Shown here: piece after piece, positions 11,906-23,697 of the stretch | Layout: each line of letters begins with the position of its first letter | How positions within the stretch are numbered: position 1 is the first letter of the stretch | Virus record (IMG/VR): IMGVR_UViG_3300009417_000016 | Coordinates: 1 to 30,095 of that record | Strand: one strand, 5' to 3' | Source of the DNA: a virus | DNA length: 30,095 bases | The notes under the pieces: generated by a model | Told to the model about the DNA's origin: nothing | Seen by the model: only the letters and a program-made list of their open reading frames with translations | The model's database searches: none | Made by a program: the position numbers and the translations under genes

Positions 11906-12130
11906 ATGGCACTCACACGCGATGAACGTTTAAAACTTCGTGACGAAAAGGTTAGAGAACTCTTCGATAAAATCTCAACCAAAAATCCCAAATGGCGATT
12001 CGATGCTATTATAGAAGATATAGAGCTCATCGTATATTTAGCTCCACGTACCATAGAAGGCATTTTAAGAGGCGAAGGTCGCTATGCTGTAGATCCTAAA
12101 CCAGAGGAATCACCTAACTTATTTTCTTAA
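11906..12130 (+). CDS. Small HTH-like protein, candidate middle/late activator
   Basis: A 74-residue protein starting at ATG 11906; an open stretch further upstream lies in the RNA/promoter region and is not coding-like. DERLKLRDEKVRELFDKIST is a basic amphipathic helix, and NPKWRFDAIIEDIELIVYLAPRTIEGILRGEG reads as helix-turn-helix with APRTIEGIL as recognition helix. The pattern is like Bacteroidota phage DNA-binding proteins. Its place, alone between early and late regions, is that of Mor/C in Mu, so a transcription activator is my inference; autoregulation through the dyad at 11870-11885 is possible. Its 3' end overlaps the convergent gpF-like gene by 12 nt. Confidence 0.6.
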   Translation: MALTRDERLKLRDEKVRELFDKISTKNPKWRFDAIIEDIELIVYLAPRTIEGILRGEGRYAVDPKPEESPNLFS

Positions 12131-12805
12131 GTCCTTTGCTGCCTTACGTGCTGCTTTAACTTCAGCTTTCGTTAAACGCTTCTGGTACACTATATCTTTG
12201 TAGATTTTTCCACTAATAGCGGCATTGTTTTTAAACTTAGTACTCAAATTACCAGCTGGTAAATTTTTACTCACCGCTTTATCCGTTTGTGTAACTCCAC
12301 AACGGCAACCATGATCGCTCGGAGGATAGATTTCTTTCCATATCGCATGATCTATCGGAGCGATTAATCCATCCCACGCTTTATGAGACTTGCGAGTTCT
12401 TGCATCATGTATTGCAGAATATTGCAAGTTAGGATAAAGATCTTTATTATTCTGAAAGTCTTGCCATTTACCAGCCATATTTGCCGTAGCAATGGTATGG
12501 TTATATTCTGTCTCTAACCAATTGACATTGTACAAACCAGACACACGTAAAGCCACTTTCTTAAAATCGTTCCACGGCACAATTTTGCCTCCAGAGACTA
12601 AAGCAGCTTCAAGTTCTTTTTTAAAAGCCGTTTCTTTAAATGCGCTAAATTCTGCAATGTTATTTTTTAGTGAGATCGCTAACGCTTCATCAAAGTAGTC
12701 TAATGTATCATTATAGCCAATATCCACGCCTTTTGCTAGTAAAGTGTTATAATACACCAGCAATTCCTTTTGTAAGGCCTTAGACACCTCACGCTTGGCA
12801 AACAT
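12119..12805 (-). CDS. gpF-like minor head / head morphogenesis protein
   Basis: A 228-residue protein from the only ATG (12805). The C-terminal Phage_Mu_F core is clear: R136/R138, H141 and WDG (144-146), then PPSDHGCRCG (161-170) with the two cysteines that bind metal in this family. It joins the portal region and directs head assembly, as Mu gpF/SPP1 gp7 do. The frame stays open for 41 codons upstream of this ATG with no ATG, GTG or TTG, straight into the portal stop region where a -1 frameshift signal lies; the fused product would be about 672 residues. Start is therefore uncertain: internal ATG, frameshift fusion, or both. Confidence 0.88.
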   Translation of the reverse strand: MFAKREVSKALQKELLVYYNTLLAKGVDIGYNDTLDYFDEALAISLKNNIAEFSAFKETAFKKELEAALVSGGKIVPWNDFKKVALRVSGLYNVNWLETEYNHTIATANMAGKWQDFQNNKDLYPNLQYSAIHDARTRKSHKAWDGLIAPIDHAIWKEIYPPSDHGCRCGVTQTDKAVSKNLPAGNLSTKFKNNAAISGKIYKDIVYQKRLTKAEVKAARKAAKDLRK

Positions 12806-12827
12806 CGCCTTTATATACCGTTCTATC

Positions 12828-12928
12828 AGCCTACTTAAACTTTTATCCTTATTAAGTTGAATTACTGAAGCTTCTGGTGTACAGCAATGCGACTTATAGT
12901 GCAGTTTAAGTAGGCTTAATCCTTTCCC
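12828..12928 (-). promoter_or_regulatory. Predicted -1 ribosomal frameshift signal, portal into gpF-like frame
   Basis: Reading the minus strand: heptamer G GGA AAG (12928-12922, in the portal frame), 5-nt spacer GATTA, then AGCCTACTTAAACT (12916-12903), a 61-nt loop and its exact complement AGTTTAAGTAGGCT (12841-12828). The portal stop TAA (12918-12916) overlaps the stem base. Slipping back one base continues as GGA TTA AGC and so on into the gpF-like frame with no stop. All three parts of a classical -1 signal are present. Confidence 0.65.
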
Positions 12929-14136
12929 TCAGTTGGTGCGTTTTCGGCTGGCATACGTTCTATCTCAGTACCATAGACTTCCTCAATATAAGACTGCTTT
13001 AAAACATAGCCATTACTCATAAACTCTTTGTCAATGACAATTTGTGCTGTAGGATCTTTGGTTTGCTCTACAGTAATAGTTGCAGTCTCTGGTATGCTAT
13101 AACCTAGCAATCGCATTGCAGGTACCAGGCGTACATTTAAAAATGATAGCATTCGTTTTTCATCGGCTGCAATGACTTCTTTTAGCGTATTCTCATGCAC
13201 ACCTCCTTGGGCTTTACTACTGCCATTCTCAGTAGTCATGGTTTGGTGCAAAATGAGTTTAGATAATTCTTTATCTAAAGCTTCAATCTTTTTGTAAAAC
13301 ACATTAAACGAATCGGTTTTACTGTTTTCTATAATATCAACCTCAGTACCTGTTGGAAATACTCCATAAGGTGCGGATCCCATTTCCTCAAGCCAATCTG
13401 CTACCTCATTTTTTACGGTCTCAGAACTGCTTGCAATTTTAGCAATTCTAATTGGTACTCCAAACAGTTCCTCAAACTCATCCCAACTTCCCCAACTGTG
13501 ACGTTTTAAAATGGTGTATGGTGCTGCTTTTTCTAAAAGACCTACATTACTATAAAATTGAGCGTACAGCAATACATCTTTAATATCTGTAAAATCAATG
13601 CCTGTTGTAGAAGATAGATCGTAAAGCAATACTTTGTGTTCTGGTACCACTAAACCACGTGGCAGCAATTCAATCTCTTTTATTTCGCCTTTAGCAAAGT
13701 CCTTAACCCAAAGCAGCGAATACCCAAAGTAAGCAGATTTATGGGCTTCATCTATCAGCAGATCAAACCATTCTTTACCCTTAATCAGTTCTGTTAGATT
13801 ATCATCTTTTTTACCATCAATGGCAAAAATGTAATCCTTGTTCGTCGTTCTTAGCGTTCGGTTTTCGGTGATACCTGTTAAGTGGCCATCTAGCATAATA
13901 TCCTCAAAAACTTCGTGCAAGTACCAGGTACGTGGAATGTCGGCATTATACCTAGCAAAACGTGCAGCTTGCCAATCGCTGATCTCTTTTCGCCATAGAC
14001 GACGTTGGCGACGGATCACATCTACCATTAAGTTAGTGATCTTCTTAATGTTTTTTTGATCTTTACTGCTAAGACTTACTTTTTTAATGGCATTGCCACT
14101 AATATTAGTTACGGTTTCAATATTTGCTTTACTCAT
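12916..14136 (-). CDS. Portal protein, DUF935 (Mu gp29-like)
   Basis: A 406-residue portal of the Mu gp29/DUF935 family, which forms the dodecameric ring at the unique capsid vertex through which DNA is packaged. Recognisable segments are YLHEVFEDIMLDGHLTG (about 72-88), the helix with ARFARYNADIPR, then SWDEFEELFGVPIRIAK and the late segment TMTTENGSSKAQGGVH. It is shorter than Mu gp29 (512), lacking a long C-terminal tail. That tail may be supplied by the downstream gpF-like frame if the predicted -1 frameshift near its stop operates. The gene is leftward in the packaging operon, 5 nt after the gpG-like gene's stop (reading order: gpG-like gene upstream). Confidence 0.9.
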   Translation of the reverse strand: MSKANIETVTNISGNAIKKVSLSSKDQKNIKKITNLMVDVIRRQRRLWRKEISDWQAARFARYNADIPRTWYLHEVFEDIMLDGHLTGITENRTLRTTNKDYIFAIDGKKDDNLTELIKGKEWFDLLIDEAHKSAYFGYSLLWVKDFAKGEIKEIELLPRGLVVPEHKVLLYDLSSTTGIDFTDIKDVLLYAQFYSNVGLLEKAAPYTILKRHSWGSWDEFEELFGVPIRIAKIASSSETVKNEVADWLEEMGSAPYGVFPTGTEVDIIENSKTDSFNVFYKKIEALDKELSKLILHQTMTTENGSSKAQGGVHENTLKEVIAADEKRMLSFLNVRLVPAMRLLGYSIPETATITVEQTKDPTAQIVIDKEFMSNGYVLKQSYIEEVYGTEIERMPAENAPTEGKD

Positions 14137-22885: not shown

Positions 22886-23521
22886 ATGAAAACTAAATTT
22901 TTAATCATGGCACTGATGCTGTTTACAGCCTTTGCCTTTTCTAACACAAACGACGACATGGCAAAACCAACAAACAAAGAACTGATTGAATTGCAAGACA
23001 AACATGGTGATCTGTACGATCTGCCAGTAGGAGACAAATTAGCCATATTACGCGCTCCAAAAATGGCAGATTATAAGCGTGCTTTTACAGCCATGCAAAA
23101 AGGTGGAGACATCGCATTTGGTGAAGCCATGCTAGAAGCTTTAATGGTAGCAGGTGATAAAGAGATTAAAACTATTGATGATTACTTCTTACCAGCGCGT
23201 AAAGAGCTGATGGACTTCTTTAATTATCCAGATGCTACTGTAGAAACCAAAGGTGCTAAAACAGAAATTACCATTGGCGATTATAGTTGTAAGGTTAGAA
23301 AAATAACCAGGGAAGATCTAAAGCTGGCCGAAAAACAGAATCCGAGTAATAAGCCTTTTGTAACTCAAGAGAAACTCTTTGACATTATATGTATTGAAAA
23401 GGACGACGCCTTTAACAATAGATCTAATGCGGAGATACGATTTCCTTTATTTCAGGCTATAGAGCAATTACAGGTCGTTAAAGTGGCAACGCTAAAAAAG
23501 CGCTCACCGATGCCATCATAG
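22886..23521 (+). CDS. Tail assembly chaperone, zero-frame product, with signal-like N-terminus
   Basis: A 211-residue chaperone between tube and tape measure, as in most long-tailed phages. The part from M25 is the chaperone proper, with the ELIELQDKHGDLYDLPVGDK start and helices to the frameshift. The first 24 residues, MKTKFLIMALMLFTAFAF and SNTNDD, look like a Sec signal peptide, odd for a cytoplasmic chaperone. An in-frame ATG at 22958 (M25) is the alternative start, without a clear ribosome site. The heptamer A AAA AAG at 23494-23500 allows a -1 shift to a 270-residue form. The zero-frame ends at TAG 23519. Confidence 0.8.
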   Translation: MKTKFLIMALMLFTAFAFSNTNDDMAKPTNKELIELQDKHGDLYDLPVGDKLAILRAPKMADYKRAFTAMQKGGDIAFGEAMLEALMVAGDKEIKTIDDYFLPARKELMDFFNYPDATVETKGAKTEITIGDYSCKVRKITREDLKLAEKQNPSNKPFVTQEKLFDIICIEKDDAFNNRSNAEIRFPLFQAIEQLQVVKVATLKKRSPMPS

Positions 23522-23539
23522 ATCCAGACGATGCATCGG
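23494..23539 (+). promoter_or_regulatory. -1 frameshift signal in the tail chaperone
   Basis: Heptamer A AAA AAG (23494-23500) in the zero frame, then a 6-nt spacer and the stem CCGATGC (23507-23513) / GCATCGG (23533-23539) with a 19-nt loop containing the zero-frame stop. This is the classic G/GT-type tail chaperone signal. Confidence 0.85.
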
Positions 23540-23697
23540 CACACAATTTAGTAAAGGAATACAATATTAGGCTGTTTGATGCCTATCTCAAATATTACAT
23601 GCACATACGGCATCCGCAGAAACTTACGGATGCCGAATGGGCTGAGGAAATTCAAAATTTACATTACATAAGAGTTAAAGAAAAAAACGCGTCATAA
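23500..23697 (+). CDS. Tail chaperone, -1 frame extension (GT-like)
   Basis: After slippage, translation continues from 23500 as ALTDAIIDPDDASAH and onward to TAA at 23695-23697, adding 65 residues, including KLTDAEWAEEIQNLHYIR. The frame has no suitable start of its own at the right place and directly precedes the tape measure gene. Such T-domains bind the tape measure protein, tube protein and help load it. Confidence 0.85.
   Translation, partial: ALTDAIIDPDDASAHNLVKEYNIRLFDAYLKYYMHIRHPQKLTDAEWAEEIQNLHYIRVKEKNAS

Follow-up and report, generated by a model that had tools for sequence, protein, structure and literature searches.

Results

The portal-MuF junction

The window analysed here is the whole 30,095-nt stretch of the IMG/VR virus record IMGVR_UViG_3300009417_000016, to which all coordinates refer, and our subject is the junction between two of its head genes, a portal gene and a MuF (gpF-like) coding region, with all junction features on the minus strand. 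The portal gene (12916-14136, 406 codons, taken as the 0 frame) belongs to the Portal_Mu family (Pfam PF06074, E=1.9e-64, 218.5 bits against a curated cut-off of 23.9). Its open reading frame (ORF), read from 14136 to 12916, finishes with the codons GAG GGA AAG GAT TAA, which hold the slippery heptamer G GGA AAG in the 0 frame (12922-12928), one codon before the TAA stop (12916-12918). A 5-nt spacer, GATTA (12917-12921), leads from the heptamer to a stem whose 5' arm, AGCCTACTTAAACT (12903-12916), pairs at 14 of 14 positions with the 3' arm, AGTTTAAGTAGGCT (12828-12841), across a loop of 61 nt. This spacing lies within the range of about 5-9 nt expected of a structure that stimulates -1 frameshifting. 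GGGAAAG is found only once in the 30-kb window; a single occurrence is not unusual, its position is. Apart from this stem, no perfect inverted repeat in the window reaches 13 nt with its arms no more than 150 nt apart. The folding energy of the 97-nt region is -29.4 kcal/mol (z = -4.8), a stability reached by none of 200 shuffled sequences.

The MuF coding region occupies the -1 frame (12119-12928, 269 codons plus the stop at 12119-12121) and is a member of the Phage_Mu_F family (PF04233, E=8.6e-15, 55.9 bits against a curated cut-off of 29.6). A Foldseek search of the MuF model against the PDB gave no significant match, so the identity of the protein rests on Pfam. Owing to a TGA immediately before it, the GGG of the heptamer is the first codon of the open -1 frame. 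Its first ATG comes 41 codons in, at 12805-12803, and no ATG, GTG or TTG precedes it, which makes the stretch 12806-12928 an extension without a canonical start. A slip of one base backwards would join 405 portal residues to 267 MuF residues in a predicted product of 672. The heptamer, the spacer, the perfect 14-bp stem with its 61-nt loop, the entry into the gpF-like frame, the 41 codons devoid of starts and a predicted fused product of about 672 residues had all been proposed by an earlier sequence-only reading of this DNA, and each is borne out by the sequence.

Conservation of the slippery site

With MuF as the only query the scans yielded no relatives, so the portal served as query instead. 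The portal search recovered 45 loci from IMG/VR, with 40-80% identity, and 17 loci from 84,980 bacterial and archaeal genomes. Since nearly all of the latter belong to Flavobacterium, Capnocytophaga, Chryseobacterium and Epilithonimonas, the host of this phage is probably a member of the Flavobacteriia. The resulting clade set comprised 41 sequences including the window, with 39 distinct contexts.

The heptamer at these 39 junctions is GGGAAAG in 19, AAAAAAG in 17, AAAAAAA in two and CCCCCAG in one, always one codon before the portal stop; the first three types together account for 38 of the 39. The site thus keeps the XXXYYYZ form across the clade, with G GGA AAG and A AAA AAG interchanging. 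The heptamer begins at the wobble position of a codon that specifies different residues in different members (E, Q, P, T, K, A, V, G, S, L or N), and the base there matches X in 39 of 39 contexts, against 10.8 expected from synonymous codon usage. On the portal tree there are at least five switches between GGA and AAA, with the wobble base switching alongside. In an independent-pair test the three well-supported pairs were all concordant, a number too small for significance.

Stem covariation and selection on the extension

A stem of the form AGCCTGCTTAAA...TTTAAGCAGGCT, with 9-19 bp and an identical 5-nt spacer, recurs in nearly all clade members. In the alignment of 39 sequences 95.1% of the stem cells are paired, and six of the 14 stem pairs have changed on both sides. 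Compensatory cells number 41, against 13.3 in shuffles, and none of 500 shuffles scored as high; controls with the stem slid along the alignment fall to 24-57% paired. Unaided, RNAalifold predicted 12 of the 14 pairs. Conserved protein segments (SLLKL and LSRL) are encoded by the two arms as well, and part of the complementarity may be maintained by them, but synonymous sites account for many of the compensating changes.

The extension appears to be read as protein. From the portal stop up to the first ATG, and with only the loop considered, pN/pS is 0.23 in the -1 frame versus 1.5 and 1.1 in the other two frames, which indicates purifying selection in the -1 frame only. The residues S5, L6, L7, L9, Y11 and C15 are each conserved in at least 90% of the sequences. 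The sequence-only reading had held that stops in the extension, or loss of the heptamer and stem, in homologues would count against a frameshift. No stop occurs in the -1 frame of the extension in the clade alignment, where it is open and conserved in 39 of 39 distinct contexts, and homologues lacking heptamer and stem did not occur within the window's clade, both elements being conserved and covarying.

Distribution among Bacteroidota-type Mu-like phages

Further scans and phage records provided a wider set of 225 loci with both portal and MuF. MuF is offset from the portal frame by -1 in 217 of them and by +1 in five, and shares the portal's ORF in three; a slippery heptamer is present in the overlap of 212 of the 217 loci with the -1 arrangement. 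The majority of the wider loci form a Bacteroides-phage-like branch, including Bacteroides phage p00, that uses T TTT TTC; the unbiased figure, from the scans of the T branch, is 138 of 141 loci. A hairpin, typically GCCCC...GGGGC, starts 5-6 nt downstream in 99 of 111 distinct T-type contexts, with a median of -14.1 kcal/mol versus -4.6 at control positions, and its variants include GCCCCG/CGGGGC, GCCCCAC/GTGGGGC and GCCCTTC/GAAGGGC. Elsewhere in T-branch proteins Phe-Phe pairs are written T TTT TTY in only two of 94 cases. At the exact place, a heptamer is found in 18 of 833 other ORF ends versus 142 of 217 portals. Placing the slip types (G, A and T) and the exceptions on a 104-portal tree takes 15 changes. 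The site that had been described for a single phage is present here and also spread, in three main slippery types, over Bacteroidota-type Mu-like phages.

In two loci (L128 and L129) a T-rich CTTTTTTCG stretch lies near the portal end and MuF is read in frame +1 (or -2), an arrangement that could reflect either decay or the same scheme with a -2 or +1 shift. In public annotations the MuF start stands about 100 nt past the portal stop in Winogradskyella phage Peternella_1 (L047, 2606) and about 275 nt past it in Elizabethkingia phage TCUEAP3 (L053, 2663). As frameshifting was not considered, the MuF starts in such genomes were probably called too far downstream.

Single-ORF fusions and outgroups

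Portal_Mu and Phage_Mu_F are found in one ORF in four loci (L041, L048, L130 and the Porphyromonas phage L237). In L041 (5203-5222) a run of 11 A lets the portal read into MuF, while its sister L235 keeps a stop together with a slip site of the A type; candidate causes of the L041 state are a fixed fusion, slippage in transcription or an artefact of run length. The structural model of the L041 fusion has a low-confidence linker (residues 417-442) between portal and MuF and a pTM of only 0.48, and such a linker is as expected for a tether between two folded domains. The Porphyromonas gingivalis phage gene (L237:2090-4651), annotated as portal only, is a single-ORF fusion of portal and MuF that continues into a PBECR2 nuclease-like domain.

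Two other loci (L035 and L045) have a MuF whose C-terminus is an ADP-ribosyltransferase domain (PF03496/PF01129), and so their predicted frameshift product would be a portal-MuF-ADP-ribosyltransferase. MuF-linked effectors were already known in Bacteroides (PMC11699363).

As for the outgroups, phage Mu, Vibrio phage martha 12B12 and Ochrobactrum phage POA1180 encode MuF as separate genes with their own starts (ATG in Mu) and show no heptamer at the portal end. In the Flavobacterium phages FPSV-S1 and lotta8-1, MuF is likewise separate, with its own start.

Discussion

A proposed frameshift at the end of the portal gene

We propose, with a probability of about 0.92, that -1 programmed ribosomal frameshifting at the end of the portal gene makes a minority of predicted portal-MuF subunits. 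The proposal draws on the signal itself, its conservation, the covariation of the stem, the coding constraint on the extension and the single-ORF fusions in relatives. Most ribosomes would terminate at the TAA and release the 406-residue portal protein, while a minority would be stalled by the stem-loop with their tRNAs on GGA AAG; these tRNAs would move back by one base to pair with GGG AAA, and translation would proceed in the MuF frame to give the 672-residue fusion. From these data we infer slipping, a slip rate and incorporation into the portal ring alongside ordinary subunits. If the fusion joins the ring in this manner, slip efficiency would set the number of MuF copies per head, each fixed at the portal.

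We lean, by a small degree, towards a broader version, in which the low copy number of MuF in the mixed portal ring of Bacteroidota Mu-like phages would be set by frameshift efficiency and not by binding, and an effector-bearing MuF, as in L035 and L045, would be tethered to the portal for packaging and delivery. In this sense, the fusion may also place effectors, since MuF or the fusion carries an ADP-ribosyltransferase in those two loci and PBECR2 in L237. If true, a whole phage group would build mixed portal rings by means of a second, similarly conserved site in the head module, and this would account for both the dosage and the placement of a protein of which each particle needs one or two copies.

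Several points weigh against this proposal. The loci are related, which means that the counts are not independent and are inflated by relatedness, and with no more than about five switches of heptamer type supported by the tree, a sign test could not become significant. Among T-type sites the wobble base before the heptamer is T in 111 of 111 distinct contexts versus 23 expected, a figure that is partly circular because the contexts were picked by their T6 heptamer. The Capnocytophaga loci L026 (5222-5236) and L225 carry C CCC CAG, a poor heptamer that is possibly a weak or single-tRNA slip site, although they keep the stem. Additionally, in one T TTT TTC branch many loci have an ATG or GTG 4 nt before the portal stop and overlapping it, and for this reason a separate MuF may also be made there.

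Alternative explanations

The alternative that survives best, although we consider it unlikely, is that frameshifting does occur but is regulatory or incidental, for example as a form of translational coupling, and that the fusion is no structural part of the virion. The start codons near the portal stop of some T-type phages would be compatible with it. In the window's clade, however, frameshifting appears to be the sole route to full-length MuF; the relatives with portal and MuF in a single ORF indicate that the fusion is tolerated or used, and the predicted model, with its low-confidence linker between folded portal and MuF, looks like a tether.

It is quite improbable that MuF is an ordinary separate gene initiated at an internal or non-AUG codon (the ATG at 12805, or a CTG or TTG in the extension), with possible coupling to termination of the portal. 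Such an in-frame ATG does exist, CTG stands at one alignment column in 28 of 39 sequences and TTG at another in eight of 39, and the outgroups from Mu, Vibrio and Ochrobactrum, together with the Flavobacterium FPSV and lotta8 phages, have MuF starts of their own. Yet the window has no own MuF start at or near the portal stop, and its clade has no conserved one: a canonical start appears in at most 10 of 39 sequences at any column, and at the CTG column the window has CTA. Measured from the portal stop, the distance to the first ATG has a median of 311 nt and a range of 14 to 566 nt, and in seven clade loci no ATG occurs within 600 nt; the sequence upstream of the first ATG is itself conserved at the protein level. 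In the AlphaFold2 model for the -1 product (pLDDT 88), residues 1-28 have low confidence and are followed by a confidently predicted helix at residues 33-45, which initiation at 12805 would interrupt. A separate gene would also leave the heptamer unexplained.

We regard as very improbable that the -1 product arises from slippage of RNA polymerase on runs of A or T. Several relatives do have A7-A11 or T6 runs, and L041 with its A11 is one ORF where its sister L235 is not. Against this, the window and about half of the clade use GGGAAAG, with no run longer than three and with the same stem, and a conserved downstream stem at a fixed spacer is typical of ribosomal frameshifting. Assembly errors or decayed prophages, suggested by the run lengths in which L043 and L041 differ from their kin and by the truncated portal of L229, have a negligible probability and are refuted by the recurrence of the same break at the same place in more than 200 loci, including Flavobacterium, Capnocytophaga and Chryseobacterium isolate genomes and cultured phages. 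Programmed ribosomal frameshifting, as the sequence-only reading had proposed, is the interpretation supported by heptamer conservation, stem covariation and selection on the extension.

Comparison with known systems

Frameshifting in tailed phages is textbook knowledge for tail chaperones, and dnaX-type frameshifting uses the heptamer A AAA AAG with a downstream stem. The latter heptamer equals that of the A-type relatives described here, although dnaX is a cellular gene whose product is shortened by the shift. In the lambda-type G/GT system (Xu, Hendrix and Duda, 2004, as cited in PMC4493119) there is also a -1 shift at an XXXYYYZ site near the end of the upstream gene, yielding a minority protein with a C-terminal extension; the difference is that tail chaperones are involved there and the head genes portal and MuF here. 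Neither does the portal-MuF site adjoin the 5' side of a tape measure gene or encode chaperones, as a G/GT site does. GGGAAAG itself is the slip site reported for the TP901-1 tail-chaperone gene gpG in PMC4493119, and PMC5009743 counts both G_GGA_AAG and A_AAA_AAG among the heptamers prone to shifting in E. coli. The window has its own tail chaperone-like pair upstream of a tape measure gene (22886-23697, plus strand), where A AAA AAG at 23494 is followed by a -1 frame open to 23697. The sequence-only reading had already credited this phage with a tail-chaperone frameshift; this arrangement suggests that the phage uses -1 frameshifting there too, at a canonical G/GT-type site.

Head proteins have a precedent in Lactobacillus phage A2, for which a -1 frameshift is cited in PMC5009743 and PMC10885494. 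A head component is extended in that phage as well; this is the major head protein, with neither portal nor MuF involved. A portal-MuF frameshift was not found in the searchable literature, in line with the earlier supposition that such a portal/minor-head fusion had not been described; supplementary tables and subscription journals were outside the search, and the novelty is therefore provisional. As judged by term searches of their texts, the closest leads (A2, TP901-1, the Microbacterium fusions and the GeneTack and PRFect surveys) concern other genes or in-frame fusions. The mechanism is known, and its use between portal and MuF is new as far as could be searched.

With respect to how the two proteins are combined, SPP1 encodes the gp6 portal and gp7, its MuF protein, as separate genes (PMC5576092), with a copy number that is not set by frameshifting. 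In-frame portal-MuF fusions are reported in PMC7302621 for Microbacterium phage subclusters EA3, EA5 and EA8 and cluster EB. Like the single-ORF fusions found here (L041, L048, L130 and L237), they place both domains on one polypeptide. Every portal subunit would then carry MuF, whereas frameshifting would give a mixed ring.
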